Source of the DNA: Closterium sp. NIES-65
Taxonomy: Eukaryota > Streptophyta > Zygnematophyceae > Desmidiales > Closteriaceae
DNA length: 64,000 nt
Direction: 5' to 3'
NCBI GenBank assembly: GCA_948144175.1
Contig: CANXME010002660.1
Coordinates: forward strand, 99,409-163,408
A program made the position numbers and the translations under genes. Under the pieces are notes generated by a model. It ran no database searches. It was not told where the DNA came from and saw only the letters and a program-made list of their open reading frames with translations. Of this stretch, positions 6,884-37,130 are shown piece after piece. Each line of letters begins with the position of its first letter. Within the stretch, counting starts at the first letter, position 1.

Positions 6884-6886
6884 AGC

Positions 6887-11510: not shown

Positions 11511-11541
11511 TATGGAATGATGGGGATGCAGCCGGCAGGCT

Positions 11542-11550
11542 GAGGGGGAG
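11542..11550 (+). other. B1 polypurine tract
   Basis: GAGGGGGAG lies two bases before the TGTTGG start of the 3' LTR, between the gag-pol stop and the LTR. It is the expected primer site for plus-strand DNA synthesis. The same tract in reverse complement precedes the LTRs of B2 and B3. Confidence 0.85.
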
Positions 11551-11552
11551 TG

Positions 11553-14024: not shown

Positions 14025-17000
14025 GGGCCTTGTTGGTCCAAGGGTGTTGGACCGACTGCCCTGTTCGTCCAATGGACCGGTTGGACCTATTGGCCTGTTG
14101 GTCCAATGAACCGGTTGGACCGACTGGCCTTTTGGTCCAATAAACCGGTTGGACCGACTGGCCTGTTGGGCCAATGGACTGGTTGGACCAACTGGCCTAT
14201 TGGTCCAATGGACCGGATGGACCAACTAGCATGTTGGGCCAATGGACCGGTTGGACCGACTAGCCTGTTGGGCCAATGGACCGGTTGGACCCACTGTCCT
14301 ATTGGTCCAATGGACCGGTTGGACCGACTGGCAAGTAGGTTCAATTGACCGGATGGCCGACTAGCCTGTTGGGCCAATGGACCGGTTGGACTGACTAGCC
14401 TGTTAGGCCAATGGAACGGTTGGACCAACTGGCTTGTTGGTCCAGTGGACCGGTTGGGGGAGTGGCCTATTGGTCCAATGGTCCGGTTGGACCAACTGTT
14501 CTGATGTCCAATGGACAGGTTGGACCAAATTCCTATTGGTCCAATGGACCGGTTGGATCGACTAGCCTATTCGTCGAATGGACCGGTTGGACCGACATGC
14601 CTGTTGGTCCAATGGACCGGTTGGACCAATTGGCGTGTTGATCCAATGGACCGGTTTGACCGACTGGCCTGTTGGTCCAATGGACCGGTTGGACCGAGTG
14701 GCCTGTTGGTCCAATGGACCGGATAGACCGACTGGCCTGTTGGTCCAATGCACTGGTTGGACCGACAGACCTGTTGGTCCAATGCACCGGTTGGACCCAA
14801 TGGACTGGCTCGACCGACTAGCATGTTGGTTCAATGGACCGGTCGCACCGACTGACCTGTTGGGCCAATGGACCGGTTCGACCGACTGGCCTGTTTGGCC
14901 AATGGACCGGTTCGACCAACTGGCGTGTTGGGCCAATGGACTGGTTGGACCGACTGGCCTCTTAGTTCAGTAGAGCAGTTGGACCCAGTAGCCTGTTGAT
15001 CCAATGGACCGGTTGGACCTACTGGCCTGTTCGGCCAATGGACCCGATGGACCGACTGGCCTGTTGGTCCAATGGACGGTTAGACCGACTGACCTGTTGG
15101 TCCAATGGACCAGTTGGACTGACTGGCCGGTTGGTCCAATGAACCGGTTGGACCGACTGGCCTTTTGGGCGAAAGGTCCGGTTTGAATGACTGGCCTGTT
15201 GGGCCAATGGACCGGTTGGACCGACTGGCCTTTTTGGCCGATGGACCAGTTGGACCGACTGGCTTGTTGGGCCAATGGACCGGTTGGACCGACTGGCCTG
15301 TTGGGCCCATGGACCGGTTGGACCGATTGGCCTGTAGGGCCAATGGACCAATTGGACCGACTGGCCCGTTGGGCCAATGGAACGGTTGGACCGACTGGCC
15401 CGTTGGTCCAATGGACCAGTTGGACAGACTGGCCTGTTGGTCCAATGGACCAGTTGGACCGACTGGCCCTTTGGGCCAATGGACCGGTTGGACCGACTGG
15501 CCCGTTGGTCCAATGGACCGGTTGGACCGACTGGCCTGTTGGGCCAATGGAACGGTTGGACCGACTGGCCTGTTGGTCCAATGGACCGGTTGGACTGACT
15601 GGCATGTTGGTCCAATGGTCCGGTTGGACCCACTATTCTGAGGTCCAATGGACCGGTTGGACCGATATGCTTGTTGGTCCCATGGACCGGTTGGATCCAC
15701 TGGCCTAAAGTTCGAATGGACCGGTTGGACCTATTGGCCTGTTGGTCCAATGAACCGGTTGGACCGACTGGCCTTTTGGTCCAATAAACCGGTTGGACTA
15801 ACTGGCCTGTTGGGCCAATGGACCGGTTCGACCAACTGGCCTGTTGGTCCAATGGACCGGATGGACCGACTAGCATGTTGGGCTTATGGATCGGTTGGAC
15901 CGACAGGCCTGTTGGGCCAATAGACCGGTTGGACCAACTGTCCTATTGGTCCAATGGACCGGTTGGACCGACAGGCAAGTAGGTCCAATTGATTGGATGG
16001 ACCGACTGGCCTGTTGGGCCAATGGACCGGCTGGAAAGACTAGCCTGTTAGGCCAATAGAGCGGTTGGACCGACTGGCTTGTTGGTCCAGTGGACCGGTT
16101 GGGGGAGTGGCCTGTTGGTCCAATGGTCCGGTTGGACCCACTATTCTAATGTTCAATGGACCGGTTGGATCGACTGGCCTATTCGTCCAATGGACCGGTT
16201 CGAACGACAGGCCTGTTGGTCCAATGGACCGCTTGGACCAATTGGCGTGTTGATGCAATGCACCGGTTGGTCCGAATGGCCTGTTAGTCGAATGGACCGG
16301 TTGGACCGAGTGGCCTGTTGGTCCAATGCACTAGTTGGACCGACAGGCCTGTTGGTCCAATGCACCGGTTGGACCCAATGGATTGGCTGGACCGACTAGC
16401 ATGTTGGTTCAATGGACCGGTCGGACCGACTAACCTATTGGGCCAGTGGACCGGTTCGACCGACTTGCCTGTTTGGCCAATGGACCGGTTCGACCAACTG
16501 GCGTGTCGGGCCAATGGACTGGTTGGACCGACTAGCCTCTTGGTTCAGTAGAGTAGTTGGACCCAGTAGCCTGTTGGTCCAACGGACCGGTTGGACCTAT
16601 TGGCCTGTTGGGCCAATGGACCGGATGGACCGACTGGCCTGTTGGTCCAATGGACCGCTTGGACCGACTGGCCTGTTGGTCCAATGGACCGGTTGGACCG
16701 ACTAGCCTGTTGGTCCAATGAACCAATTGGACCGACTGGCCTTTCGGGTGAAAGGACCGGTTTGAACATCTGGCCGGTTGGGCCAAAAGACCGGTTGGAC
16801 CGATTGGTCTTTTTGGCCAATGGACCGGCTGGACTGACAGCCCTGTTGGGCCAATGGACCGGTTGGACCGACTGGCCTGTTGGGCCCATGGACTGGTTGG
16901 ACCGATTGGCCTGTTGGGCCAATGGACCGGTTGGACCGACTGGCCCGTTGGGCCAATGGACCGGTTGGACCGACTGGCCCGTTGGTCCAATGGACCGGAA

Positions 17001-17939
17001 GGACGGACTGGCCTGCTGGTCGAATGGACCAGTTGGACCGACTGGCCCGTTGGGCCAATGGACCGGTTGGACCAACTGGCCCGTTGGGCCAATGGACCGG
17101 ATAGACCGACTGGCCTGTTGGTCCAATGCACTGGTTGGACCAACAAGCCTGTTGGTCCAATGCACCTGTTGGACCCAATGGACTGGCTGGACCGACTAGC
17201 ATGTTGGTTAAATGGACCGGTCGGACTGAATGACCTGTTGGGCCAATGGACCGGTTCGACCGACTGGCTTGTTTGCCCAATGGACCGGTTCGACCAACTG
17301 GCGTATTGGGCCAATGGACTGGTTGGACCGACTAGCCTCTTGGTTCAGTAGAGCAGCTGGACCCAGTAACCTTAAGGTCCAATGGACCGGTTGGACCTAC
17401 TGGCCTGTTGGGCCAATGGACCCGATGGACCGACTGGCCTGTTGGTCCAATGGACCGGTTGGACCAACTTGCCTGTTGGTCCAATGGACCGGTTGGACCG
17501 ACTAGCCTGTTGGTCCAATGAACTAGTTGGACCGACTAGCCTTTTGAGCGAAAGTCCGGTTTGAACGTCTGGCCTGTTGGGCCAAAAGATCGGTTGGACC
17601 GACTGGCCTTTTTGGCCAATGGACCGGTTGGACCGACTGGCCTGTTGGGCCAATGGACCGGTTGGACCGACTGGCTTGTTGGGCCCATGGACCGGTTGGA
17701 CCGATTGGCCTGTTGGGCCAATGGACCGGTTGGACCGACTGGCCCGTTGGGCCAATGGACCGGTTGGACCGACTGGCCCGTTGGTCCAATGGACCGGTTG
17801 GACGGACTGGCCTGTTGGTCCAATGGACCAGTTGGACCGACTTGCCCGTTGGGCCAATGGACCGGTTGGACCGGCTGGCCCGTTGGGCCAATGGACCGGT
17901 TGGACCCACTGTCCTATTGGTCCAATGGACCGGTTGGAC

Positions 17940-18110
17940 CGACTGGCCTGTTGGGCCAATGGAACGGTTGTACAGACTGGCCTGTTGGTCCAATGGACCG
18001 GTTGGACCGACTGGCCTGTTGGGCCAATGGAACGGTTGTACAGACTGGCCTGTTGGTCCAATGGACCGGTTGGACCGACTGGCCTGTTGGGCCAATGGAA
18101 CGGTTGGACC
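17940..18110. repeat. 68-bp duplicated block within S1
   Basis: A two-unit block marked by the variants AACGGTTGTACAGACTGG and GGTCCAATGGACCGGTT occurs twice in direct succession here, with a third partial copy (AACGGTTGGACC) following. It shows recent local amplification in multiples of the 34-bp unit. Confidence 0.7.
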
Positions 18111-19371
18111 GACTGGCCTGTAGGTCCAATGGACCGGTTGGACTGACAGGCATGTTGGTCCAATGGTCTGGTTGGACCCACTATTCTGAGGTCCAATGGA
18201 CCGGTTGGATCGACATGCTTGTTGGTCCCATGGACCGGTTGGATCGACTGGCCTAAAGGTCCAATGGACCGGTTGGACCGACTGGCCTGTTGGTCCAATG
18301 GACCGGTTGGACCTATTGGCCTGTTGGTCCAATGAACCGGTTGGACCGACTGACCTTGTGGTCCAATAAACCGGTTGGACCGACTGGCCTGTCGGGCCAA
18401 TGAACCGGTTGGACCAACTGGCCTGTTGGTCCAATGGACCGGATGGACCGACTAGCATGTTGGGCCAATTGGCCGGTTGGACTGACTGGCCTGTTGGGCC
18501 AATGGACCGGTTGGACCCAATGTCCTATTGGTCCAATGGACCGGTTGGACCGACCGGCCTGTTGGGCCAATGGACCGGTTGGACTGACTAGCCTGTTAGG
18601 CCAATGGAACGGTTGGACCGACTGGCTTGTTGGTCCAGTGGATCGGTTGGGGGAGTGGCCTTTTGGTCCAATGGTCCGGTTGGACCCACTGTTCTGATGT
18701 CCAATGGACCGGTTGGACCAAATTTCTGTTGGTCCAATGGACCGGTTGGATCAGTTGGCCTATTCGTCCAATGGAACGGTTGGGCCGACTTGCCTGTTTG
18801 TCCAATGGACCGGTTGGACTGACTGGCATGTTGGTCCAATGGTCCGGTTGGACCCACTATTCTGAGGTCCAATGGACCGGTTTGACCAACATGCTTGTTG
18901 GTCCTATGGACCGGTTGGATCAACTGGCCTAAAGGTCCAATGGACAGGTTGGACTGACTGGCCTGTTGGTCCAATGGACCGGTTTGAGTGATTCGCCTGG
19001 TCCAATGGACCGGTTGGACCCACTGGCCTGTTGGTCCAATGGACTGGTTTATCGGACTGGCTTATCCGATTGGCCTGTTGGTCCTATGGACTGGTTGGAC
19101 CAACTTGCTGTTAGTCCAATGGACTGGTTAGACCGAGAAGCCTGTTGGTATAATGGACCGATTGGACCAATTTGCTGTTAGTCCAATGGACCGGTTGGAC
19201 TGACCGGCCTTTTGGTCGAATAGACCGGTTGGACGGACTGGCGAGTTGGTCCAATGGACCGGATGGACCGTCTGGCCTGTTGGTCCAATGCACTACTTGG
19301 ATCGACAGGACTGTTGGTCAAATGGACTGGTTGGACCCAATGGACTTGCTGGACCGACAAGCTTGTTGGTT

Positions 19372-19376
19372 CAATG
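19372..19376. repeat. Target-site duplication of the B2-B3 dimer (left)
   Basis: CAATG lies directly before the outer LTR and recurs at 31994-31998 after the opposite outer LTR. It is part of the satellite unit, and joining the flanks restores a normal unit (TTCAATGGACCG). Confidence 0.9.
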
Positions 19377-20469
19377 TGTTGGTGTAAGGGCCTAATAAAC
19401 TCAAGCTATTAAGACTTTATCAAACTTAAAACCTCTCCTCGGGGTCACCTCCAAGGGTCCTTGGGTGCCTGGTACAAGACCAGCCCCTATCCTCGGGTCC
19501 GAGTTTGTAGAGAGAGGGATCAAGAGGGACTTAGTCAAAACAGCAAGAGTACCTTGAACGTCGCGCAGCGTATCGTGCAGACCGTCGATCGGATTAAGCT
19601 GAGAATTTCCTATATCGAAGCTCACTCTAAGAACTTTAAAATAAGCCAAGTTGCCTCGCGAAAAGTTCTGCCATTACGAAGTTATGGCTCGGACAGCGTT
19701 AGCCTAGCGTTGGAGTGCTAGCATACTAGCGTTGACTCGGGTAGCATTCCGCCGTCGCATCGCGTAGAAACGAAATTCCAGCAAGAAAGGAATTCGCTTG
19801 AATCAATTTGACTATATTCAGGTACAAACAGAGAAGGAATAAATAGCTCTAGCTAGCAAGGACCTTGGGAATCAACCTGGGAACAACCAGGGATCATCCC
19901 AAATAATTCCAAGCAACAGAACCAGCCTTGCTGGACAAAATAGCAGGTGGTAGGTTGGTGAACAACCTCTGGTTCTGTTTTTCCAACCTGGGAAAACAAC
20001 AACCAGGTTCAGGTCCTAAAAACAGAACCTGTTTTGTCTTTGCCCAACCAGCCAAATGCTGGTTCCGCTGGTTTCCCCTGGCCCTGTAGCATGCAGATAC
20101 AGACAAACAACATCCAACCTTCACCTAAATTGTACCCCTATAGTGCCTGCCCTGCTACACTATAGTCAACCAAACAAAACAGTACAATTTTGAGTTGGAT
20201 AGAACTGAATCTGCGCAATCAAGTAAGTTGAACCGCAAAGCTTCCATCTTGGGTTCCTTTGCGAGCTCGTCCTTTCTGCTTGTACTGTTCATAGCGCGTA
20301 CAATGTTAAGCCGAAGCGCACATTGTGCGAGTACCTGCAAATGTTTGAAGCGAAAATTGCGAAAGCAAACAAACACACGAACATACCATTCACACGCAAA
20401 TGCATTCGCATACGCATACTCGTACAATCAGACGGCAGGATGTCGTGCAATGTGAATTTGCACCCAACA
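19377..20469 (-). repeat. Dimer LTR 1 (3' LTR of B2)
   Basis: It is 1093 bp with TGTTGG/CCAACA ends. It shares a G in CAATTTGACTATATT with LTR 2, where LTR 3 and other family-B LTRs on this strand have C (CAATTTCACTATATT). Confidence 0.95.
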
Positions 20470-20471
20470 CA

Positions 20472-20480
20472 CTCCCCCTC
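20472..20480 (-). other. B2 polypurine tract
   Basis: CTCCCCCTC on the + strand is the reverse complement of the B1 tract, two bases from the LTR. Confidence 0.8.
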
Positions 20481-20511
20481 AGCCTGCCGGCTGCATGTCC
20501 ATCATTCCATA

Positions 20512-23500
20512 CTAGTTCATGCTCATTCCACTCATGCGCACACAACGCCAATGAGGCTCATCCGCAAGCCTCTTGGTGAGGAAGTCTGCTGGCTGCTGGT
20601 GAGTCTTGATGTAGATCGGATTCACCGTCCCCCTCTTCACCTCCTTACGCAGCCAGTGCCACTTGATACGCATGTGCTTGTTCAGCCCATGAAGCACAGC
20701 GTTCCTGGCCATCCCAAGAGCTCCCTTGCTATCACAAAACAGCGGCGTAGCAATCTTTTGCTCCTGGCCAATCTCCTCTAATAGCCTCCTCAGCCAAATC
20801 ACCTCCTTCACCCCATGGAACATCGCCATGTACTCTGATTCCACGGAAGAGAGTGCTGTCTCCGTCTGCTTCTTTGACCTCCAACTAACCGGTCCTCCCC
20901 CAACTACGCAGATGTATCCTCCCACAGATGAGGAATCCTCCTTCTCAGAGGCCCACGTAGCATCAGTAAAGCAAGTGAGAAAAAGCTTGCCTTCTCCAAG
21001 CCTCTCCCCCTTCTCTTTCAGCACCTCAACCCCTTTCTGCTTCACCTGTGCAGATGCGGAGTATTGAACTCCAATGCTTGGGTGAGAGTTCAGATACTTC
21101 ATCACACGCTCAGCTGCATCCACCTGCTCCTCTGATGGATTCTGCACTACCCTAGCCAGCTGCCCAACCGAGAAAGAGATGTCTGGTCTCGTGTGAACTG
21201 CTGCATACAAGAGGCTGCCCACCAAGGACTGAAATTGCTGCTGCTCCTCGGCTTCAACCCCTTCATCCTCTGCAGCTTTCACAAGCTTGAATTCTGCTGG
21301 CAGGGGAGTTGCAACCTTGCGCTCATTCTCAATTCCGTACTTCTCCCCAAGCTCCTTGATGAACTTCTCCTGGTGCAGCTTCAACCACCTGTGATCCAGA
21401 TCCCTCTCCACGTGCATCCCGAGGTAGTACTTTACCTCCCCAAGGTTCTTGCACTTGAAGTTCTCCATCAGCTGCTGCTGCACCTTCTGGATCTCCTTCA
21501 TGCTGCTGCTAAAGAGAAGAATGTCGTCCACATAGACCAGAAACAGCACCAGCTTCTCCCCCTCCCCCTTGAGAAAGAGGCTCTCATCACAGCTGCTGGT
21601 CCTGAATCCCATCTCCTCTAAAACAGCTGCCAACTTCTGGTACCAGCAGCGTGGCGCCTGCTTCAAGCCGTAGATGGACTTTTTCAGCTTGCACACCCTG
21701 CCCGTACCATCCTCATACCCAGGTGGCTGCGTCATGAACACCTCCTCCTCTAAAATCCCGTTGAGAAATGCCGTTGATATGTCCATCTGGATAATGAACT
21801 TCCCATCAACGGCTGCATCTGCCAACAAGACACGAAGGGTAGGCGGTTTGGCAGTGGGAGCAAAGATCTCATTGAAGTCCCGCTTCTCCTTCTGCATAAA
21901 CCCCTTAGCCACCAACCTACTCTTGTAGATGGTGACCTGCCCCTTGTCGTCAGTCTTGATCCTTAGCACCCATTTGCATTGTACCGCTTTCTTTCCCTCA
22001 GGCAGCACCACTAGTTCCCAAGTCCCATTCTCCAGCAGGCTCTGGTACTCAGCATCCCTAGAAGCTAGCCATTTGTCCCTATCTGGTCCAGCTAATGCCT
22101 CCTCCATGCTAGCTGGTTCCTCTGGTGCAGGGGCAAGAAAACAGTACGCAGGTTGATCCTCCTCATCCGGGTCATAGCCATGCGGTAGAATCAGCAATGC
22201 CTCCTCGGTCCCAAGCTGCTGCTCCGCTACATCAGCTCCTGCAGTCAGCTTCTTAGTAGCCATACGGGTACGTCCTGGCCTGGAGACGGGTGTCTCCCAT
22301 CCCTTCATAATAACACCCTTCGGCTTCTTAGTTTTCCCCTGCTGCTGCTCTCCTCCCTCGGATCCAGCAGCTCCACTAGTGCTACCGCTAATCTCCACAC
22401 CATCACCTCCACCAGCAGGTGCCTCCTGCACCTTCTCTTTATCACCACCCTCTGCAGCTGCCTCCTCTCCCTCCTCCCACACACTAGGAGTCAGGTCCAG
22501 CTGCATGGTGATCTGCTCCATCTGCTGGGACACCCTGGCGTCCGGCTGTTTCTCCCAACTCCCATACATCATGCCCTCAACAAACTTCACATCCCTGCTG
22601 TCAAACAACACACTCTTGGAAGGTTCCCACAGCAGCCATCCCTTGCTCTCAGCAGCCAGCCCCAAATGCACACACCAGATTGCACTCGCCCCCAACTTAC
22701 TGCGGTAGGTCTTGGGGACGTGGGCGACTGTCATGCAACCGAACACCCTCAGCATGTCCACCGGCGGCTTCCTCCCAAGCCACCTCTCCAACGGCACCCA
22801 CGAGTCATCCCCAACCTTTGTGAGTACCCTGTTCCTAGCGACGGTAGCGTGCCGAACAGCATGGGGCCACATGGAGTTGCCCAGCCCAGATTCTATGAGC
22901 AGCGCCCTAGCTGTCTCCAGAATTGTCCGGTTCGCCCGTTCTGCTACACCGTTAGACTGTGGGGTGTAAGCCGTGGTCAGCTCCCTCTGGATGCCCTGCT
23001 TCTTGAGCCAGGCCGTCATCTCAGCTCCAAGGAATTCACCACCCCGATCTGTCCTAATCCGCTTCACCACACACTCCGCTTGCTTCTCCACGAATGGCAG
23101 CCAATCTTCCCGTATCGTAGAGGCGGCATGGTCCTTCTGCTTCAGCGGATATGCCCACATAAGCCTGCTCCAATCATCCACTATGGTCAGAAAGTACCGC
23201 TCCCCCTTGTGTCCCTGAACCGGCAGCGGCCCCACCAAGTCCATGTGGACCAGCTCCAACGGCTTCTTGCTCCTGCCAGCCACACTATGGAAGGGGAAAC
23301 GGGTAAACTTTGAGAGCAAACAGATTTCACAGTTATCATCGGGTGGTTGTCCGTTCAGCTTCAAGCCCTTAACGGCTCCATCCTTCTCCAGCTGCTTCAG
23401 CAAAGGCATTGCCACATGCCCCAAGCGTCGGTGTGCCGTTGCCCAATCCGTCTCCCCAGATCTGGCCGACACTTTCACACCAACCCCTCCAACGGCGTTG

Positions 23501-25092
23501 CACTCCCCCTGGGATGCAGACCCCTCTCCAGCCTGCCCCCCACCGTGCCACGCCAGCGCCGGCAGCTGCCACATAGATCTGTACACGTCCTTGCTCTCGT
23601 GCAGATCCCAAAGCACCCGATTGCCCAGCTTCCCCTTATAAGTGCGAGCCCCATCCGTGTTGGTGTTCACCCCAGCCTTGCCAAGCTTACGGAGGGAGAT
23701 GAGGTTGGCCTTCAGGTCGGGGACGAGGAGAACGTCGTGCAGCACCACCGGCTTGCCATCCGCTCCCTTAAATGCAGCTCGTCCCGCACCAGCCACCTTC
23801 AACATGTGTCCAGAGGCAGAGCACACCTCATTAATCGGTGCAGCGTGTACGTCGTCCAGCAGGTCCTTGCGCGGCGTCATTGTCCAAGCAGCGCCTGTGT
23901 CCAACACCCAATAGTCCAGGGGGTGCAGCTCTGCTCCAGCCTTAGCAGATGCGTCTCCTTGCTCCCCCTTGTCTCCCATATGGAAGAATTGGCCCGCGGT
24001 GCGCTCCTTCTTCTTTTCCGCACGGCCGTTGCCCTTTGGGTTGTTGTCGGACGAATCAGCGACCATGTTGGCGCCGTTTTTCTGGTTCCTCCGCGCGCCG
24101 CCATCCTGGTGACGATTCTGGGGGGTCCATCCATCGGGTTTCTTATAGCACAAAAACCAGGGGTGCCCTTCCTTCTCACAATACCAGCAACTCCCTTTTA
24201 TTTTGCCACCAGCACCCGACTTGCCCCCACGTCCAGATTTCGCACCGCGACCCCAACCGGTACCTCCTTGTTGGTCGTTGGAGTCGTCGTCTTTCTTTGC
24301 ACCGCGTCCAGCACCACCGAAGCCACGTCCTTTGCCACGTCGGCTCCCTTGCATCCCGTAGCCGCTGCTGCCGTCGTCTCCACCCCTCAGTTGGCGGCGA
24401 CGGAAGTCCTCCTCCAGAATCTTCGTCCGCACCCACTCGAGCGTCCACAAGTTCTGGTTCTGCGGCAGGCTCAATCCGCTCGTGAATTGAAGCCACGATT
24501 CCGGCAGCAGCGAGAGCATCTTCAGGCACTTGGTCTGCTCCGGGTAGGTGATTCCCGCGGTCGCCAACTTCGCGTAGAGGTCGCGCAATTTGTCCAGGAC
24601 AGGTTGCACCGGCTCTCCCTCGCTTAGGCGCAACGCGGACAGCTCCCTCTCCAGCATCAATGTTGCAACAACGGAGGTCGGGGCGTGCAGCTCCTTCAAC
24701 ACCGTCCACGCCTTCGGACCGCACTCAACCTCCGGCAGCAGGTGCATGACGTGGTGACGCTGGTTCAGCTCCAAACTCTGCGACATCAAGTAGTAGCCAG
24801 CCGAGGCGCGCTCGTCCCAATCTTCCTGAAGGGCGGGGTCACTCGGTCTAGGCTCCTCCCCAATCATTAGTTTCAGCAAGCCGATCTGACGGAAATAGAG
24901 TTGCATTTTCCAGGCCCAATCATCATAGCCCTCACCATTGAACTTCTCGACGGTGAAGTTTTTCAGCACCTCCTTGATCAGCGAGCCCTGGCTTGTTCGC
25001 GCTCCCCTTGGCGCAGAAACACCAGAATCATGGCTGCCGCTACGATCATGGGCTGAAGATTCACCAGCTACCGCCGAGGTGTTGCCCGCCAT
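20512..25092 (-). CDS. Family B gag-pol polyprotein (B2), full length, 1526 aa
   Basis: It has the same length and domain order as the B1 polyprotein: gag with the CWYCEKEGHPWFLC knuckle, protease LDTGA, integrase DD35E, RT with YVDD, and RNase H with TDATW, SVESEY and CDSKG. It is uninterrupted. It differs from B1 by roughly 20 scattered residues (for example SAHD for SAQD near the start, NLWT for SLWT, KIKG for KMKG beside the zinc knuckle). Versus B3 it has KIKG/KMKE, SVLF/GVLF, LLYAA/LLHAA and FTDATW/FSDATW. It is probably functional. Transcription would start in LTR 2 and end in LTR 1, or read through from LTR 3. Confidence 0.96.
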   Translation of the reverse strand: MAGNTSAVAGESSAHDRSGSHDSGVSAPRGARTSQGSLIKEVLKNFTVEKFNGEGYDDWAWKMQLYFRQIGLLKLMIGEEPRPSDPALQEDWDERASAGYYLMSQSLELNQRHHVMHLLPEVECGPKAWTVLKELHAPTSVVATLMLERELSALRLSEGEPVQPVLDKLRDLYAKLATAGITYPEQTKCLKMLSLLPESWLQFTSGLSLPQNQNLWTLEWVRTKILEEDFRRRQLRGGDDGSSGYGMQGSRRGKGRGFGGAGRGAKKDDDSNDQQGGTGWGRGAKSGRGGKSGAGGKIKGSCWYCEKEGHPWFLCYKKPDGWTPQNRHQDGGARRNQKNGANMVADSSDNNPKGNGRAEKKKERTAGQFFHMGDKGEQGDASAKAGAELHPLDYWVLDTGAAWTMTPRKDLLDDVHAAPINEVCSASGHMLKVAGAGRAAFKGADGKPVVLHDVLLVPDLKANLISLRKLGKAGVNTNTDGARTYKGKLGNRVLWDLHESKDVYRSMWQLPALAWHGGGQAGEGSASQGECNAVGGVGVKVSARSGETDWATAHRRLGHVAMPLLKQLEKDGAVKGLKLNGQPPDDNCEICLLSKFTRFPFHSVAGRSKKPLELVHMDLVGPLPVQGHKGERYFLTIVDDWSRLMWAYPLKQKDHAASTIREDWLPFVEKQAECVVKRIRTDRGGEFLGAEMTAWLKKQGIQRELTTAYTPQSNGVAERANRTILETARALLIESGLGNSMWPHAVRHATVARNRVLTKVGDDSWVPLERWLGRKPPVDMLRVFGCMTVAHVPKTYRSKLGASAIWCVHLGLAAESKGWLLWEPSKSVLFDSRDVKFVEGMMYGSWEKQPDARVSQQMEQITMQLDLTPSVWEEGEEAAAEGGDKEKVQEAPAGGGDGVEISGSTSGAAGSEGGEQQQGKTKKPKGVIMKGWETPVSRPGRTRMATKKLTAGADVAEQQLGTEEALLILPHGYDPDEEDQPAYCFLAPAPEEPASMEEALAGPDRDKWLASRDAEYQSLLENGTWELVVLPEGKKAVQCKWVLRIKTDDKGQVTIYKSRLVAKGFMQKEKRDFNEIFAPTAKPPTLRVLLADAAVDGKFIIQMDISTAFLNGILEEEVFMTQPPGYEDGTGRVCKLKKSIYGLKQAPRCWYQKLAAVLEEMGFRTSSCDESLFLKGEGEKLVLFLVYVDDILLFSSSMKEIQKVQQQLMENFKCKNLGEVKYYLGMHVERDLDHRWLKLHQEKFIKELGEKYGIENERKVATPLPAEFKLVKAAEDEGVEAEEQQQFQSLVGSLLYAAVHTRPDISFSVGQLARVVQNPSEEQVDAAERVMKYLNSHPSIGVQYSASAQVKQKGVEVLKEKGERLGEGKLFLTCFTDATWASEKEDSSSVGGYICVVGGGPVSWRSKKQTETALSSVESEYMAMFHGVKEVIWLRRLLEEIGQEQKIATPLFCDSKGALGMARNAVLHGLNKHMRIKWHWLRKEVKRGTVNPIYIKTHQQPADFLTKRLADEPHWRCVRMSGMSMN

Positions 25093-25123
25093 AGCTACCT
25101 ATATCGAGGATCACTATAACGCA

Positions 25124-25135
25124 GCTCTGATACCA
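25124..25135 (-). other. B2 primer-binding site
   Basis: GCTCTGATACCA on + is the reverse complement of TGGTATCAGAGC, three bases from the LTR. Confidence 0.88.
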
Positions 25136-25138
25136 GCT

Positions 25139-26231
25139 TGTTGGTGTAAGGGCCTAATAAACTCAAGCTATTAAGACTTTATCAAACTTAAAACCTCTCC
25201 TCGGGGTCACCTCCAAGGGTCCTTGGGTGCCTGGTACAAGACCAGCCCCTATCCTCGGGTCCGAGTTTGTAGAGAGAGGGATCAAGAGGGACTTAGTCAA
25301 AACAGCAAGAGTACCTTGAACGTCGCGCAGCGTATCGTGCAGACCGTCGATCGGATTAAGCTGAGAATTTCCTATATCGAAGCTCACTCTAAGAACTTTA
25401 AAATAAGCCAAGTTGCCTCGCGAAAAGTTCTGCCATTACGAAGTTATGGCTCGGACAGCGTTAGCCTAGCGTTGGAGTGCTAGCATACTAGCGTTGACTC
25501 GGGTAGCATTCCGCCGTCGCATCGCGTAGAAACGAAATTCCAGCAAGAAAGGAATTCGCTTGAATCAATTTGACTATATTCAGGTACAAACAGAGAAGGA
25601 ATAAATAGCTCTAGCTAGCAAGGACCTTGGGAATCAACCTGGGAACAACCAGGGATCATCCCAAATAATTCCAAGCAACAGAACCAGCCTTGCTGGACAA
25701 AATAGCAGGTGGTAGGTTGGTGAACAACCTCTGGTTCTGTTTTTCCAACCTGGGAAAACAACAACCAGGTTCAGGTCCTAAAAACAGAACCTGTTTTGTC
25801 TTTGCCCAACCAGCCAAATGCTGGTTCCGCTGGTTTCCCCTGGCCCTGTAGCATGCAGATACAGACAAACAACATCCAACCTTCACCTAAATTGTACCCC
25901 TATAGTGCCTGCCCTGCTACACTATAGTCAACCAAACAAAACAGTACAATTTTGAGTTGGATAGAACTGAATCTGCGCAATCAAGTAAGTTGAACCGCAA
26001 AGCTTCCATCTTGGGTTCCTTTGCGAGCTCGTCCTTTCTGCTTGTACTGTTCATAGCGCGTACAATGTTAAGCCGAAGCGCACATTGTGCGAGTACCTGC
26101 AAATGTTTGAAGCGAAAATTGCGAAAGCAAACAAACACACGAACATACCATTCACACGCAAATGCATTCGCATACGCATACTCGTACAATCAGACGGCAG
26201 GATGTCGTGCAATGTGAATTTGCACCCAACA
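25139..26231 (-). repeat. Dimer LTR 2 (shared middle LTR)
   Basis: This 1093-bp LTR serves as the 5' LTR of B2 and the 3' LTR of B3. It is flanked by the B2 PBS at its lower-coordinate side and the B3 polypurine tract at its upper side, so no host DNA separates the two elements. Confidence 0.95.
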
Positions 26232-26273
26232 CACTCCCCCTCAGCCTGCCGGCTGCATGTCCATCATTCCATA

Positions 26274-29200
26274 CTAGTTCATGCTCATTCCACTCATGCG
26301 CACACAACGCCAATGAGGCTCATCCGCAAGCCTCTTGGTGAGGAAGTCTGCTGGCTGCTGGTGAGTCTTGATGTAGATCGGATTCACCGTCCCCCTCTTC
26401 ACCTCCTTACGCAGCCAGTGCCACTTGATACGCATGTGCTTGTTCAGCCCATGAAGCACAGCGTTCCTGGCCATCCCAAGAGCTCCCTTGCTATCACAAA
26501 ACAGCGGCGTAGCAATCTTTTGCTCCTGGCCAATCTCCTCTAATAGCCTCCTCAGCCAAATCACCTCCTTCACCCCATGGAACATCGCCATGTACTCTGA
26601 TTCCACGGAAGAGAGTGCTGTCTCCGTCTGCTTCTTTGACCTCCAACTAACCGGTCCTCCCCCAACTACGCAGATGTATCCTCCCACAGATGAGGAATCC
26701 TCCTTCTCAGAGGCCCACGTAGCATCACTAAAGCAAGTGAGAAAAAGCTTGCCTTCTCCAAGCCTCTCCCCCTTCTCTTTCAGCACCTCAACCCCTTTCT
26801 GCTTCACCTGTGCAGATGCGGAGTATTGAACTCCAATGCTTGGGTGAGAGTTCAGATACTTCATCACACGCTCAGCTGCATCCACCTGCTCCTCTGATGG
26901 ATTCTGCACTACCCTAGCCAGCTGCCCAACCGAGAAAGAGATGTCTGGTCTCGTGTGAACTGCTGCATGCAAGAGGCTGCCCACCAAGGACTGAAATTGC
27001 TGCTGCTCCTCGGCTTCAACCCCTTCATCCTCTGCAGCTTTCACAAGCTTGAATTCTGCTGGCAGGGGAGTTGCAACCTTGCGCTCATTCTCAATTCCGT
27101 ACTTCTCCCCAAGCTCCTTGATGAACTTCTCCTGGTGCAGCTTCAACCACCTGTGATCCAGATCCCTCTCCACGTGCATCCCGAGGTAGTACTTTACCTC
27201 CCCAAGGTTCTTGCACTTGAAGTTCTCCATCAGCTGCTGCTGCACCTTCTGGATCTCCTTCATGCTGCTGCTAAAGAGAAGAATGTCGTCCACATAGACC
27301 AGAAACAGCACCAGCTTCTCCCCCTCCCCCTTGAGAAAGAGGCTCTCATCACAGCTGCTGGTCCTGAATCCCATCTCCTCTAAAACAGCTGCCAACTTCT
27401 GGTACCAGCAGCGTGGCGCCTGCTTCAAGCCGTAGATGGACTTTTTCAGCTTGCACACCCTGCCCGTACCATCCTCATACCCAGGTGGCTGCGTCATGAA
27501 CACCTCCTCCTCTAAAATCCCGTTGAGAAATGCCGTTGATATGTCCATCTGGATAATGAACTTCCCATCAACGGCTGCATCTGCCAACAAGACACGAAGG
27601 GTAGGCGGTTTGGCAGTGGGAGCAAAGATCTCATTGAAGTCCCGCTTCTCCTTCTGCATAAACCCCTTAGCCACCAACCTACTCTTGTAGATGGTGACCT
27701 GCCCCTTGTCGTCAGTCTTGATCCTTAGCACCCATTTGCATTGTACCGCTTTCTTTCCCTCAGGCAGCACCACTAGTTCCCAAGTCCCATTCTCCAGCAG
27801 GCTCTGGTACTCAGCATCCCTAGAAGCTAGCCATTTGTCCCTATCTGGTCCAGCTAATGCCTCCTCCATGCTAGCTGGTTCCTCTGGTGCAGGGGCAAGA
27901 AAACAGTACGCAGGTTGATCCTCCTCATCCGGGTCATAGCCATGCGGTAGAATCAGCAATGCCTCCTCGGTCCCAAGCTGCTGCTCCGCTACATCAGCTC
28001 CTGCAGTCAGCTTCTTAGTAGCCATACGGGTACGTCCTGGCCTGGAGACGGGTGTCTCCCATCCCTTCATAATAACACCCTTCGGCTTCTTAGTTTTCCC
28101 CTGCTGCTGCTCTCCTCCCTCGGATCCAGCAGCTCCACTAGTGCTACCGCTAATCTCCACACCATCACCTCCACCAGCAGGTGCCTCCTGCACCTTCTCT
28201 TTATCACCACCCTCTGCAGCTGCCTCCTCTCCCTCCTCCCACACACTAGGAGTCAGGTCCAGCTGCATGGTGATCTGCTCCATCTGCTGGGACACCCTGG
28301 CGTCCGGCTGTTTCTCCCAACTCCCATACATCATGCCCTCAACAAACTTCACATCCCTGCTGTCAAACAACACACCCTTGGAAGGTTCCCACAGCAGCCA
28401 TCCCTTGCTCTCAGCAGCCAGCCCCAAATGCACACACCAGATTGCACTCGCCCCCAACTTACTGCGGTAGGTCTTGGGGACGTGGGCGACTGTCATGCAA
28501 CCGAACACCCTCAGCATGTCCACCGGCGGCTTCCTCCCAAGCCACCTCTCCAACGGCACCCACGAGTCATCCCCAACCTTTGTGAGTACCCTGTTCCTAG
28601 CGACGGTAGCGTGCCGAACAGCATGGGGCCACATGGAGTTGCCCAGCCCAGATTCTATGAGCAGCGCCCTAGCTGTCTCCAGAATTGTCCGGTTCGCCCG
28701 TTCTGCTACACCGTTAGACTGTGGGGTGTAAGCCGTGGTCAGCTCCCTCTGGATGCCCTGCTTCTTGAGCCAGGCCGTCATCTCAGCTCCAAGGAATTCA
28801 CCACCCCGATCTGTCCTAATCCGCTTCACCACACACTCCGCTTGCTTCTCCACGAATGGCAGCCAATCTTCCCGTATCGTAGAGGCGGCATGGTCCTTCT
28901 GCTTCAGCGGATATGCCCACATAAGCCTGCTCCAATCATCCACTATGGTCAGAAAGTACCGCTCCCCCTTGTGTCCCTGAACCGGCAGCGGCCCCACCAA
29001 GTCCATGTGGACCAGCTCCAACGGCTTCTTGCTCCTGCCAGCCACACTATGGAAGGGGAAACGGGTAAACTTTGAGAGCAAACAGATTTCACAGTTATCA
29101 TCGGGTGGTTGTCCGTTCAGCTTCAAGCCCTTAACGGCTCCATCCTTCTCCAGCTGCTTCAGCAAAGGCATTGCCACATGCCCCAAGCGTCGGTGTGCCG

Positions 29201-30854
29201 TTGCCCAATCCGTCTCCCCAGATCTGGCCGACACTTTCACACCAACCCCTCCAACGGCGTTGCACTCCCCCTGGGATGCAGACCCCTCTCCAGCCTGCCC
29301 CCCACCGTGCCACGCCAGCGCCGGCAGCTGCCACATAGATCTGTACACGTCCTTGCTCTCGTGCAGATCCCAAAGCACCCGATTGCCCAGCTTCCCCTTA
29401 TAAGTGCGAGCCCCATCCGTGTTGGTGTTCACCCCAGCCTTGCCAAGCTTACGGAGGGAGATGAGGTTGGCCTTCAGGTCGGGGACGAGGAGAACGTCGT
29501 GCAGCACCACCGGCTTGCCATCCGCTCCCTTAAATGCAGCTCGTCCCGCACCAGCCACCTTCAACATGTGTCCAGAGGCAGAGCACACCTCATTAATCGG
29601 TGCAGCGTGTACGTCGTCCAGCAGGTCCTTGCGCGGCGTCATTGTCCAAGCAGCGCCTGTGTCCAACACCCAATAGTCCAGGGGGTGCAGCTCTGCTCCA
29701 GCCTTAGCAGATGCGTCTCCTTGCTCCCCCTTGTCTCCCATATGGAAGAATTGGCCCGCGGTGCGCTCCTTCTTCTTTTCCGCACGGCCGTTGCCCTTTG
29801 GGTTGTTGTCGGACGAATCAGCGACCATGTTGGCGCCGTTTTTCTGGTTCCTCCGCGCGCCGCCATCCTGGTGACGATTCTGGGGGGTCCATCCATCAGG
29901 TTTCTTATAGCACAAAAACCAGGGGTGCCCTTCCTTCTCACAATACCAGCAACTCTCTTTCATTTTGCCACCAGCACCCGACTTGCCCCCACGTCCAGAT
30001 TTCGCACCGCGACCCCAACCGGTACCTCCTTGTTGGTCGTTGGAGTCGTCGTCTTTCTTTGCACCGCGTCCAGCACCACCGAAGCCACGTCCTTTGCCAC
30101 GTCGGCTCCCTTGCATCCCGTAGCCGCTGCTGCCGTCGTCTCCACCCCTCAGTTGGCGGCGACGGAAGTCCTCCTCCAGAATCTTCGTCCGCACCCACTC
30201 GAGCGTCCACAAGTTCTGGTTCTGCGGCAGGCTCAATCCGCTCGTGAATTGAAGCCACGATTCCGGCAGCAGCGAGAGCATCTTCAGGCACTTGGTCTGC
30301 TCCGGGTAGGTGATTCCCGCGGTCGCCAACTTCGCGTAGAGGTCGCGCAATTTGTCCAGGACAGGTTGCACCGGCTCTCCCTCGCTTAGGCGCAACGCGG
30401 ACAGCTCCCTCTCCAGCATCAATGTTGCAACAACGGAGGTCGGGGCGTGCAGCTCCTTCAACACCGTCCACGCCTTCGGACCGCACTCAACCTCCGGCAG
30501 CAGGTGCATGACGTGGTGACGCTGGTTCAGCTCCAAACTCTGCGACATCAAGTAGTAGCCAGCCGAGGCGCGCTCGTCCCAATCTTCCTGAAGGGCGGGG
30601 TCACTCGGTCTAGGCTCCTCCCCAATCATTAGTTTCAGCAAGCCGATCTGACGGAAATAGAGTTGCATTTTCCAGGCCCAATCATCATAGCCCTCACCAT
30701 TGAACTTCTCGACGGTGAAGTTTTTCAGCACCTCCTTGATCAGCGAGCCCTGGCTTGTTCGCGCTCCCCTTGGCGCAGAAACACCAGAATCATGGCTGCC
30801 GCTACGATCATGGGCTGAAGATTCACCAGCTACCGCCGAGGTGTTGCCCGCCAT
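26274..30854 (-). CDS. Family B gag-pol polyprotein (B3), full length, 1526 aa
   Basis: It is uninterrupted and nearly identical to B2. All catalytic motifs are present: zinc knuckle, LDTGA protease, integrase DD35E, YVDD RT and RNase H. Two changes deserve a look: FTDATW is FSDATW beside the first RNase H aspartate, and the residue before the knuckle is Glu in place of Gly (KMKESCWYC). Neither removes a catalytic residue. The start ATG is at 30852-30854, 46 bases from the LTR. The upstream LTR 3 should drive it. Confidence 0.96.
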   Translation of the reverse strand: MAGNTSAVAGESSAHDRSGSHDSGVSAPRGARTSQGSLIKEVLKNFTVEKFNGEGYDDWAWKMQLYFRQIGLLKLMIGEEPRPSDPALQEDWDERASAGYYLMSQSLELNQRHHVMHLLPEVECGPKAWTVLKELHAPTSVVATLMLERELSALRLSEGEPVQPVLDKLRDLYAKLATAGITYPEQTKCLKMLSLLPESWLQFTSGLSLPQNQNLWTLEWVRTKILEEDFRRRQLRGGDDGSSGYGMQGSRRGKGRGFGGAGRGAKKDDDSNDQQGGTGWGRGAKSGRGGKSGAGGKMKESCWYCEKEGHPWFLCYKKPDGWTPQNRHQDGGARRNQKNGANMVADSSDNNPKGNGRAEKKKERTAGQFFHMGDKGEQGDASAKAGAELHPLDYWVLDTGAAWTMTPRKDLLDDVHAAPINEVCSASGHMLKVAGAGRAAFKGADGKPVVLHDVLLVPDLKANLISLRKLGKAGVNTNTDGARTYKGKLGNRVLWDLHESKDVYRSMWQLPALAWHGGGQAGEGSASQGECNAVGGVGVKVSARSGETDWATAHRRLGHVAMPLLKQLEKDGAVKGLKLNGQPPDDNCEICLLSKFTRFPFHSVAGRSKKPLELVHMDLVGPLPVQGHKGERYFLTIVDDWSRLMWAYPLKQKDHAASTIREDWLPFVEKQAECVVKRIRTDRGGEFLGAEMTAWLKKQGIQRELTTAYTPQSNGVAERANRTILETARALLIESGLGNSMWPHAVRHATVARNRVLTKVGDDSWVPLERWLGRKPPVDMLRVFGCMTVAHVPKTYRSKLGASAIWCVHLGLAAESKGWLLWEPSKGVLFDSRDVKFVEGMMYGSWEKQPDARVSQQMEQITMQLDLTPSVWEEGEEAAAEGGDKEKVQEAPAGGGDGVEISGSTSGAAGSEGGEQQQGKTKKPKGVIMKGWETPVSRPGRTRMATKKLTAGADVAEQQLGTEEALLILPHGYDPDEEDQPAYCFLAPAPEEPASMEEALAGPDRDKWLASRDAEYQSLLENGTWELVVLPEGKKAVQCKWVLRIKTDDKGQVTIYKSRLVAKGFMQKEKRDFNEIFAPTAKPPTLRVLLADAAVDGKFIIQMDISTAFLNGILEEEVFMTQPPGYEDGTGRVCKLKKSIYGLKQAPRCWYQKLAAVLEEMGFRTSSCDESLFLKGEGEKLVLFLVYVDDILLFSSSMKEIQKVQQQLMENFKCKNLGEVKYYLGMHVERDLDHRWLKLHQEKFIKELGEKYGIENERKVATPLPAEFKLVKAAEDEGVEAEEQQQFQSLVGSLLHAAVHTRPDISFSVGQLARVVQNPSEEQVDAAERVMKYLNSHPSIGVQYSASAQVKQKGVEVLKEKGERLGEGKLFLTCFSDATWASEKEDSSSVGGYICVVGGGPVSWRSKKQTETALSSVESEYMAMFHGVKEVIWLRRLLEEIGQEQKIATPLFCDSKGALGMARNAVLHGLNKHMRIKWHWLRKEVKRGTVNPIYIKTHQQPADFLTKRLADEPHWRCVRMSGMSMN

Positions 30855-30885
30855 AGCTACCTATATCGAGGATCACTATAACGCA

Positions 30886-30897
30886 GCTCTGATACCA
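30886..30897 (-). other. B3 primer-binding site
   Basis: GCTCTGATACCA on + lies three bases from LTR 3, exactly 5762 bp from the B2 site. Confidence 0.88.
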
Positions 30898-30900
30898 GCT

Positions 30901-31993
30901 TGTTGGTGTAAGGGCCTAATAAACTCAAGCTATTAAGACTTTATCAAACTTAAAACCTCTCCTCGGGGTCACCTCCAAGGGTCCTTGGGTGCCTGGTACA
31001 AGACCAGCCCCTATCCTCGGGTCCGAGTTTGTAGAGAGAGGGATCAAGAGGGACTTAGTCAAAACAGCAAGAGTACCTTGAACGTCGCGCAGCGTATCGT
31101 GCAGACCGTCGATCGGATTAAGCTGAGAATTTCCTATATCGAAGCTCACTCTAAGAACTTTAAAATAAGCCAAGTTGCCTCGCGAAAAGTTCTGCCATTA
31201 CGAAGTTATGGCTCGGACAGCGTTAGCCTAGCGTTGGAGTGCTAGCATACTAGCGTTGACTCGGGTAGCATTCCGCCGTCGCATCGCGTAGAAACGAAAT
31301 TCCAGCAAGAAAGGAATTCGCTTGAATCAATTTCACTATATTCAGGTACAAACAGAGAAGGAATAAATAGCTCTAGCTAGCAAGGACCTTGGGAATCAAC
31401 CTGGGAACAACCAGGGATCATCCCAAATAATTCCAAGCAACAGAACCAGCCTTGCTGGACAAAATAGCAGGTGGTAGGTTGGTGAACAACCTCTGGTTCT
31501 GTTTTTCCAACCTGGGAAAACAACAACCAGGTTCAGGTCCTAAAAACAGAACCTGTTTTGTCTTTGCCCAACCAGCCAAATGCTGGTTCCGCTGGTTTCC
31601 CCTGGCCCTGTAGCATGCAGATACAGACAAACAACATCCAACCTTCACCTAAATTGTACCCCTATAGTGCCTGCCCTGCTACACTATAGTCAACCAAACA
31701 AAACAGTACAATTTTGAGTTGGATAGAACTGAATCTGCGCAATCAAGTAAGTTGAACCGCAAAGCTTCCATCTTGGGTTCCTTTGCGAGCTCGTCCTTTC
31801 TGCTTGTACTGTTCATAGCGCGTACAATGTTAAGCCGAAGCGCACATTGTGCGAGTACCTGCAAATGTTTGAAGCGAAAATTGCGAAAGCAAACAAACAC
31901 ACGAACATACCATTCACACGCAAATGCATTCGCATACGCATACTCGTACAATCAGACGGCAGGATGTCGTGCAATGTGAATTTGCACCCAACA
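30901..31993 (-). repeat. Dimer LTR 3 (5' LTR of B3)
   Basis: It is 1093 bp with TGTTGG/CCAACA ends. It carries CAATTTCACTATATT at 31328, where LTRs 1 and 2 have G. It is followed by the TSD CAATG. Confidence 0.95.
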
Positions 31994-31998
31994 CAATG
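31994..31998. repeat. Target-site duplication of the B2-B3 dimer (right)
   Basis: CAATG matches 19372-19376. Confidence 0.9.
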
Positions 31999-32092
31999 GA
32001 CCGCTCGGACCGAGTGACCTATTGGGCAAATGGACCGGTTGGACAGACTAGCCTGTTTGGCCAATGGACCGGTTGGACCAACTGGCCTATTG
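31994..32092. repeat. 34-bp satellite S1, continuation after the dimer
   Basis: About three units follow the dimer directly (GGACCGCTCGGACC, then GGACCGGTTGGACAGAC, then GGACCGGTTGGACC). It is the same array as 14025-19376, split by the insertion. Confidence 0.92.
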
Positions 32093-32842
32093 TGTTGGTG
32101 TAAGGGCCTAATAAACTCAAGCTATTAAGACTTTAACAAACTTAAAACCTCTCCTCGGGGTCACCTCCAAGGGTCCTTGGGTGCCTGGTACAAGACCAGC
32201 CCCTATCCTCGGGTCCGAGTTTGTAGAAAGAGGGATCAAGAGGGACTGAGGCAAAACAGCAAGAGTACCTTGCACGTCGCGCAGCGTATCGTGCAGACCG
32301 TCGATCGGATTAAGCTAAGATTTTCCTATATCGAAGCTCCCTCCAAGAGCTTTAAAATGAACCAAGTTGCCTTGCGAAAAGTTCTGCCATTACGAAGTTA
32401 TGGCTCGGACAGCGTTTGCCTAGTGTTGGAGTGCTAGCGTACTAGCGTTGACTCGGGTAGCATTCCGCCGTTGCACCGCGTAGAAACGAAATTCCAGGAA
32501 GGGAGGAATTCGCTTGAATCAATTTCACTATATCCAGGTACAAACAGAGAAGGAATAAATAGTTCTAGCTAGCAAGGACCTTGGGAATAAACCTGGGAAC
32601 AACCAAGGATGATCCCAAATAATTCCAAGCAACAGAACCAACCTGGCTGGACAAAACAGCAGGTGGTAGGTTGGTAAACAACCTCTGGTTCTGTTTTTCC
32701 AACCTGGGAAAACAACAACCAGGTTCAGGTCCTAAAAACATAACCTATTCTGTCTTTGCCCAACCAGCCAAATGCTGGTTCCGCTGGTTTCCCGTGGCCC
32801 TGTAGCATGCAGATACAGACAAAAAAAAACCAACCTTCACCT
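32093..32842 (-). repeat. Truncated family B LTR (-)
   Basis: It starts with the intact terminus TGTTGGTGTAAGGGCC inside the satellite and runs about 750 bp, to CCAACCTTCACCT. There the sequence turns into the opposite strand of the same LTR. It carries private changes (GACTTTAACAAAC, AAAAAAAAACCAACC), so it is older than the dimer LTRs. The rest of the element is missing. Confidence 0.85.
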
Positions 32843-32905
32843 ATAGTACAATTTAGGTGAAGGTTGGATGTTGTTTGTCTGTATCTGCATGCTACAGGAC
32901 CAGGG
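32799..32905. repeat. Inverted repeat at an LTR-LTR junction
   Basis: The left arm (CCTGTAGCATGCAGATACAGAC, then CCAACCTTCACCT) and the right arm (AGGTGAAGGTTGG, then GTCTGTATCTGCATGCTACAGG) are reverse complements of about 45 bp each. They are separated by a loop of about 10 bp (ATAGTACAATTT). Confidence 0.85.
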
Positions 32906-33053: not shown

Positions 33054-33899
33054 AGGTCCCCTCCTAGGGACTGTTCCTAGGGCCCACCGAAGCGCGCCCC
33101 GAGGCGCGCGTTCCTTTTTTTTAGCAACCCTCTGTGTCGCCCCTAGCGGCCCGTTACGCTGCCCTTACCTACGCGGCCCCGCCGCCCTTACCTACGCGGC
33201 CCTGCCGCCCTTACCTACGCGGCCCCGCCGCCCTTACGTCGCGGCCCCGCCGCCCTTACATCGCGGCCCCGCCGCCCTCACGTCGAGGCCCCGCCGCCTC
33301 ACCTACGCGGCCCCCCCTCGCCCTTACCTACGCGGCCCCGCCGCCCTTACCTACGCGGCCCCGCCGCCCTTACCTACGCGGCCCCGCCGCCCTTACCTAC
33401 GCGGCCCCGCCGCTCTTACGTCGCGGCCCCGCCGCCCTCCAGTCGCGGCCCCGCCGCCCTCACCTACGCGGCCCCGCCGCCCTCACCTTCGCGGCCTCGC
33501 CGCCTTCACCTTTGCGGCCCCGCCGCCCTCACCTACGCGGCCCCGCCGCCCTCACCTTCGCGGCCTCGCCGCCCGTGTCTACGCGGCCCCGCCGCCTTCT
33601 CCTACGCGGCCCCGCCGCCCTCACGTCGCGGCTCCGCCGCTCACACCTTCACGGCCCCGCCGGTCTCCCCTCCTGCCGAGCCGCCCGAGCAGCCGCCCGC
33701 CACGCCGCCCGGTACCGGAGCAGCCGAGCCGCCCAGCAGCAGCCGCCGAGCCGCCGGGCCGCCGAGCCGTAGTACCGCCAAGCCGCCCCGCAGCCGAGCC
33801 GCACTACTGACGAGCCGCCCGACCTGCCCTGTCTGGTGAGCACAGCCCCACTGCTACTACGTGCCCTTCCCCCACTGCTTGCACTGCTAGTCTGTCGTC
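33054..33899 (+). other. A2 long untranslated leader
   Basis: It is 846 bp between the PBS and the gag ATG with no convincing gene. It contains the 23-bp minisatellite and, at 33670-33830, GAGCCGCC-rich sequence like the A1 leader. Open frames across it reflect repeat composition. Confidence 0.7.
33145..33660. repeat. 23-bp GC-rich minisatellite in the A2 leader
   Basis: About 22 units of the type TACGCGGCCCCGCCGCCC plus TTACC (23 bp) occur with TCGCGG, CACC and TTCACC variants. 23 is not a multiple of 3, so three units give a 69-bp, 23-residue Pro/Arg/Ala reading cycle and long spurious ORFs. The window part of the A1 leader lacks it. Confidence 0.85.
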
Positions 33900-34689
33900 A
33901 TGGCTACCCCTAGTGTCCTCGCTTTTGACGCTGAGGGTCGAGCCATTGACTTTGAGGTCTGGGTCGACGACCTGCAGCTGTTTTTACAGTGCGATAGGGC
34001 GGACGGTCTTTCTCTCTTTGACCTCACCTCTGGCGCCTCCCCTGCTCCTGCTGCTGATGCTCACCCCACTGTTCGCTCTCAGTGGGCCACCCGCGATGCT
34101 ACTGCACGTCTTGCTGTGCGTCGCCACCTGCCTACCACTAAGCGCGCGCACTTTAGTCAGTACAAGAGTGCTCAGACCTTGTACGACGCTGTAGTTGCGC
34201 GCCACTCTTCCCCTCCCACTGCTGCACTGAGCCGCCTCATGCTACCGTACCTCTTCCTGGACCTTGCTGCCTTTCCTACTGTTGCTGACCTCATCACGCA
34301 CCTCCGCACTTCTGACACTCGCTACCGCGCCGCACTTCCTGCTGAGTTCTGCGCCAGGAACCCCCCCCCATGTACATCGCTCTCTATTACATAGTCACTC
34401 GCCTCCCTGACTCCCTTCGCGTAGTCAGGGACCACTTCCTCTCAGTCTGTCCCACCACCCTCACTGTCGACCTCCTCGAGAAGGCCCTCCTAGCGCAGAG
34501 AAGAGCATAGTTGCTATAGGAGCCTCTCGTGGTGACCCGGGCACCCCCATCTTTGAGGGGTGTTCTCCTTCCCCCCTGCTGCCCTCTGTTGCCTCTGCTG
34601 CTGCTGCCGACCTGCTTGGTCTTGAGTCGGTCGGCGCGGCGTCTGCCCCTAGCGGGAGATGCCGCCCTGGCAAGGGCAAGGGGGGCAAG

Positions 34690-34890
34690 GGCGCGGGTGG
34701 AGCTGGCAGGGGCGGTGGAGGTGGCAGTGGTGGTGGCGGAGGGAGTGGGGGTGGCGGTGGGAGTGGTGGTGGGGGTGGTGGTGGTGGTGGCGGCAACGGA
34801 GGCGGCGGCGGTGGCGGCGGCGGCGGTGGGAGCGGAGGCGGCGGTGGTGGCGGAGGTGGAGGCGGCGGTGGCGGAGGAGGTGGAGCCGGT
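34690..34890 (+). repeat. Polyglycine-coding tract in A2 gag
   Basis: GGN repeats match the A1 tract at 1081-1259 but with a different length and arrangement (GGTGGTGGTGGTGGC, GGCGGCGGCGG). Confidence 0.75.
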
Positions 34891-36914: not shown

Positions 36915-37130
36915 GGGGGTGCTGAGCCTGGGGGTGCTGACTCTGGGGGTGCTGAGTCTGGGGGTGCTGAGCCTGGGGGTGCTGAGCCTGGAGGTGCTGC
37001 CTCTGGGGGTTCTGAGCCTGGGGGTGCTGAGCCTGGGGGTACTGACTCTGGGGGTGCTGCGCGCGTGGGTGCTGAGCCTGGGGGTGCTGAGCCTGGGGGT
37101 GCTGCGTCTGGAGCTGCTGAGCCTGGAGGT
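36915..37130 (+). repeat. 15-bp coding minisatellite in the A2 linker
   Basis: The units are of the GGGGGTGCTGAGCCT kind, as in A1, with about 14 units here against about 19 in A1. Confidence 0.75.

Follow-up and report, generated by a model that had tools for sequence, protein, structure and literature searches.

Introduction

Tandem retrotransposons in which neighbouring units share an inner long terminal repeat (LTR), comprising TLI1, TLI2 and the IDENTAM set, have been described in rice, Arabidopsis, almond and cotton, and the mechanism of their formation was stated as open in that 2025 survey (PMC11899658). Complex insertions of the Angela, Squiq and Opie elements in grasses have been ascribed to template switching (PMC1950507), and three-LTR elements have been catalogued by LTRtype (PMC5379124). 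Here, we describe an array of this kind in the desmid Closterium sp. NIES-65. It lies in a stretch of 64,000 nucleotides (contig CANXME010002660.1 of assembly GCA_948144175.1, positions 99,409 to 163,408 of the forward strand), called the window below and numbered from its first letter, and is composed of two units of a Ty1/Copia element, on the minus strand, inside a 34-bp satellite.

The array resembles the surveyed tandems in its shared inner LTR, its order LTR-internal-LTR-internal-LTR, its short flanking duplication and the high identity of its units, and it shows what that survey uses to recognize a tandem: an LTR at each outer end, alternation of LTR and internal sequence, and a single short flanking duplication (PMC11899658). 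With the complex grass insertions (PMC1950507) it shares three LTRs, two cores, a 5-bp duplication and near-identical outer LTRs. The structural features listed for them (an internal LTR, two complete cores, a duplication and similar outermost LTRs) are all present, LTR1 and LTR3 differing at 1 of 1093 positions; unlike those elements, however, the array gives no evidence of two different parents, and its family also has longer arrays. The three-LTR elements of LTRtype have the same architecture and are likewise a small minority, but that catalogue covers all families of a whole genome, whereas one family is considered here (PMC5379124). Of the 66 rice candidates 89% were Gypsy (PMC11899658), whereas the present array belongs to one Copia family with at least 39 further such places. 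The shared-LTR tandem is a structure type already published, and a single dimer alone is ordinary; the number of such places in one Copia family is the mildly unusual part. We present evidence bearing on the origin of the array and favour, at a probability of roughly 50%, a single insertion that was then expanded by unequal exchange between LTRs.

Results and Discussion

The array was read from an assembly of 874 Mb in 2400 contigs. Three LTRs of 1093 bp alternate with two internal regions of 4669 bp at an exact period of 5762 bp (Table 1), and the duplicated CAATG flanks the outer ends only; the inner junctions have no CAATG, and primer-site and polypurine-side sequence stands there instead. 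This arrangement, claimed in an earlier note that was made from the letters alone, proved correct to the base, and the note's view of a tandem dimer with one shared LTR, one 5-bp target-site duplication and an origin from one insertion is supported. The LTRs have TG..CA ends and, together with the 5-bp duplication, the primer site and the polypurine tract, give the element the structure of a Copia retrotransposon. The primer site, TGGTATCAGAGC, resembles what we take to be the plant initiator-Met tRNA primer site, and the sequence at the other end of the internal region is presumably the polypurine-tract side. Both reading frames are open, as had been claimed: each unit keeps a single 1526-aa frame with the domains Retrotran_gag_2, Pol_BBD, gag_pre-integrs, rve, SH3_retrovirus and RVT_2, in that order. 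A domain order with integrase before reverse transcriptase defines Copia, and in both units the integrase lies upstream of the reverse transcriptase within the gag-pol frame. A read-through dimeric RNA of two units is possible.

Table 1. Features of the array, in window coordinates
Feature	Position	Strand	Remark
Target-site duplication CAATG, left copy, in 34-bp satellite	19372..19376	.	
LTR1, 3' LTR of unit 1 (element orientation), 1093 bp	19377..20469	-	G at LTR position 434
Presumed polypurine-tract side, unit 1	20470..20480	-	sequence
Internal region, unit 1, 4669 bp	20470..25138	-	
gag-pol frame, unit 1, 1526 aa	20512..25092	-	
Primer binding site TGGTATCAGAGC, unit 1	25124..25135	-	resembles that for initiator-Met tRNA
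LTR2, shared middle LTR	25139..26231	-	sequence same as LTR1
Internal region, unit 2, 4669 bp	26232..30900	-	6 differences vs unit 1
gag-pol frame, unit 2, 1526 aa	26274..30854	-	
Primer binding site, unit 2	30886..30897	-	
LTR3, 5' LTR of unit 2	30901..31993	-	C at LTR position 434
Target-site duplication CAATG, right copy	31994..31998	.	
34-bp satellite array receiving the insertion	14046..19376	.	resumes 31994-32092
Unit 1/unit 2 differences (unit 1 coordinates)	20966, 21207, 22614, 24136		G/C, A/G, T/C, G/A
Unit 1/unit 2 differences, continued	24194, 24199, 25572		C/T, T/C, G/C

All differences between units and among LTRs were listed, as the earlier note had proposed. Aligned in register, the units show 7 differences over 6855 positions, six of them internal and one in the LTR; the latter, at LTR position 434, is the sole difference among the three LTRs. 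Internal divergence between the units is thus 6/4669 (0.13%), and that between the outer LTRs, LTR1 and LTR3, is 1/1093 (0.09%). The three other full-length alignments of 4669 bp stand at 1.09-1.48%, compared with the 0.13% between the units, and the closest partial alignments, of 2513 and 3367 bp, are 99.36% and 99.32% identical, respectively. The LTRs for comparison were picked by similarity to LTR1, and the family alignments include regions fetched twice (L005/L012, L006/L013, L007/L011, L008/L014; L and C numbers here denote sampled regions and contigs). By sequence comparison, the two units are sisters. Unit 1 carries the derived state at 22614 and 24199, and unit 2 at 20966, 21207, 24136 and 24194. 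Judged against 29-32 alignments per site, some regions being counted twice, the derived base is absent from all other sampled copies at five of the six sites and present in 1 of 32 at 24194.

Five of the six internal differences are nonsynonymous and one is synonymous, and 77% of all possible changes are nonsynonymous. Between unit 1 and the element at window 5791-12645, in contrast, 16 changes are nonsynonymous and 33 synonymous (Fisher p 0.026 vs the unit-unit ratio, for this comparison alone), and between unit 1 and six other copies (4.4-4.6 kb) 15-22 and 34-58 are, respectively. Because the ratio between the units is near that expected of equally likely changes, their differences appear to have arisen once the element was integrated, or as errors of copying, and not to come from two selected parents; the six, few as they are, look neutral. 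The element at 5791-12645 stands alone as a full-length member of the family; its LTRs are identical, its 1526-aa frame is open, its target-site duplication is CTGCC, and it is nested in an old LTR remnant.

Seven substitutions are common to both units and occur in none of the family alignments compared. Two of them, the GT at 20497-20498, were counted as unseen because internal alignments shorter than 300 bp were left out, although a short piece in L025 has GT; the corresponding 36-mer has six exact matches elsewhere in the genome. The array is thus a member of a small subfamily. None of the five subfamily LTRs read shows the two shared LTR substitutions (19633, 19929). Exact matches to a family 29-mer from the primer-site side number 1674 in the assembly.

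It had been argued that a derived G shared by LTR1 and LTR2 constrains the order of events. The base at LTR position 434 is G in these two and C in LTR3. The G-bearing 36-mer, however, has 45 exact matches genome-wide, 2 here and 43 outside the locus, and across 56 LTR alignments (some regions counted twice) the position is C in 42, G in 8 and T in 6. When an LTR tree was built without this column from the 52 rows kept after removal of identical ones, the sister of the array was a G-bearing LTR (support 0.52); among the six other copies with GT at 20497-20498, three have G and two C at position 434, and the sixth gave no LTR match. The ordering argument fails because G is a family polymorphism, found also in the nearest sampled LTR, and ordering of events from this site was rejected. 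The C of LTR3 may be the changed state; a single change in LTR3 fits the pattern under any model and is therefore silent on order.

The satellite speaks to the number of insertions. When one CAATG is removed, the satellite keeps its 34-bp phase across the junction (peaks at -40, -6 and +28). An alternative origin would be from two independent insertions, each at a CAATG in neighbouring satellite units, whose facing LTRs recombined with loss of the satellite in between. CAATG makes up 2.1% of satellite 5-mers, which weakens the matching duplication as evidence, and a further family member, inserted in this satellite on C1758, likewise used CAATG (CATTG on the other strand); an array on C1819, which has clean ends without a duplication, may be a case of this kind. 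Two random satellite 5-mers, however, agree only 1.3% of the time; no sampled copy is as close to either unit as the units are to each other, and the differences between the units look neutral. Moreover, a recombinant of two insertions is expected to have no matching duplication and differing outermost LTRs (PMC1950507), whereas CAATG is found at both ends of the array and its outer LTRs are near-identical. We consider two insertions very improbable. Also on C1758, a solo LTR in the same satellite is flanked by a duplication of its own, CTGGC. Within the window, arrays of the 34-bp satellite, with units about 75% alike, occupy 14046-19376, 46796-51826 and 62582-64000 and have been hit repeatedly by the Copia family of the array.

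The structure recurs elsewhere in the assembly. A 3093-bp piece of the window covering internal-LTR2-internal, used as a query, gave 51 rows of matches, 40 of which extend across the LTR and reach internal sequence at either end; 39 of these places lie outside the array locus, a lower bound since only 40 of 4121 first-look candidates were scored. Six pairs of places have equal scores, and some of the places are likely one locus on two contigs, as flanks confirm for one of the pairs, C1385/C641; C533 and C1052 also share flanks. Misassembly, a false tandem join of two haplotypes, or two reads, of one element, would be in keeping with the mere seven differences between the units and with the finding of no second contig with the exact left junction. 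The many other places argue against such an artefact, as do the two sites that show the structure on two flank-matched contigs (C1385/C641 and C533/C1052), even though these could also be segmental duplications. We regard misassembly as unlikely. In a sample chosen by LTR similarity, none of the 38 classifiable LTRs outside the window is a middle LTR (including the window, 1 of 46; the count excludes L001-L008 and two LTRs that lie at stretch edges), and middle LTRs are thus a small minority.

For 18 of the 39 other places, the outer ends were examined in windows of 91 bp. Both ends could be read and lead into non-element sequence in five arrays at three sites (C1385 and C641; C533 and C1052; C1819), with the target-site duplications GTGCT at C1385 and TCGCA at both C533 and C1052. 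C641, which represents the C1385 site, has a few left-end bases missing and no duplication there. Internal sequence continues beyond one or both ends in 4 of the 18, giving at least four units on C2323 and C579 and at least three on C2264 and C2306; these counts assume the 5762-bp period as spacing, and of the outermost units only the ends were read. One or both ends were not found within the 91-bp windows in nine arrays (C2391, C2121, C1840, C1739, C741, C1977, C2362, C3, C339). Arrays on C2121 (about 95398) and C2323 (about 61715) have an identical 45-bp left flank. No element sequence is present on C2121 in the 182 bp round the expected right end, whereas C2323 runs on; the pair may represent a single insertion site at which array length differs, possibly between haplotypes, or a duplicated host segment.

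Some related places were noted in passing. A second internal-LTR-internal place on C2362 (39377-42469, minus strand, 97%) had no outer ends within its 91-bp windows. The pair of LTRs at C3:85403/91156 (L036, L037), spaced 5753 bp apart and found among 100 listed places of the 29-mer, was rejected as a shared-LTR array: about 273 bp with no family match separate the LTR from the next internal piece and occupy the place where the internal region would have its first 289 bp. By eye, this stretch resembles exon-intron sequence. L018 (C1450:1470500-1480400) has three LTRs at a spacing of about 2937 bp, the first two sharing their left flank and the last two their right flank.

These observations bear on whether the dimer was made before or after integration. 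A dimer could have been made by template switching between co-packaged RNAs, by read-through RNA of a one-LTR circle or by recombination of cDNA, and then integrated as one piece. The single 5-bp duplication and near-identical outer LTRs are those expected of such an element (PMC1950507), internal and LTR divergences agree, and two other sites have clean dimers with their own duplications. The LTRs of the C533 dimer differ in 11 of 591 columns, and no difference is shared by two LTRs: nine are private to the left one (six of them in one cluster), one to the middle and one to the right. On the other side, arrays of at least three to four units are more simply made by recombination in place, as is the shared-flank pair C2121/C2323, which differs where it was read. 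The units, moreover, appear to derive from one template or from two that were nearly identical; the cores are sisters with neutral-looking differences, and two RNAs of one source would look alike. We consider integration of a ready-made dimer possible, but less probable than expansion in place.

Unequal exchange is our first choice because ordinary recombination also explains the longer arrays and the differences in length. According to this model, a single Copia element would have integrated at a CAATG of a 34-bp satellite unit, as the anatomy indicates, producing the 5-bp duplication. Soon after, the right LTR of one chromatid or homologue would have exchanged with the left LTR of the other by unequal homologous recombination, duplicating one LTR-internal unit in place and leaving LTR-internal-LTR-internal-LTR with one LTR shared. 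The units would then have gained six neutral-looking internal substitutions, two in unit 1 and four in unit 2, and one LTR would have changed at position 434, a course that the comparisons support without proving it.

Several observations weigh against expansion after insertion. The confidence limits of the internal (6/4669) and outer-LTR (1/1093) divergences overlap, and therefore duplication and insertion could be one event. The C533 dimer has no mosaic middle LTR in the half of the LTR that was read (591 columns); its private differences without a mosaic suggest formation at or near insertion, before the LTRs diverged. The clean-ended array on C1819 lacks a duplication. The exact left junction of the present array occurs once in the assembly, so that neither a second haplotype nor a single-copy allele was seen. 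Finally, no evidence here separates the exchange from a dimer integrated whole.

Other repeats surround the array. A truncated family LTR (32093-32843) lies 99 bp to the right of the dimer, with satellite between, and after it comes a 63-bp piece of LTR in inverted orientation. Family members also form two inverted pairs, at 39701-46795 and 51827-62577, with their 3' ends facing and parts missing near the centre. Two GC-rich copies of another Copia-like element, 88% alike and with in-frame short repeats, occupy 27-4661 and 33678-38205.

With dozens of places, arrays of up to at least four units and lengths that vary between copies of the same site, it is conceivable, if doubtful, that this Copia family habitually builds shared-LTR tandems, through replication or through recombination at the insertion site. 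One family with many arrays in one genome, some of them on two contigs, would supply cases with which to tell exchange in place from the integration of ready-made dimers.

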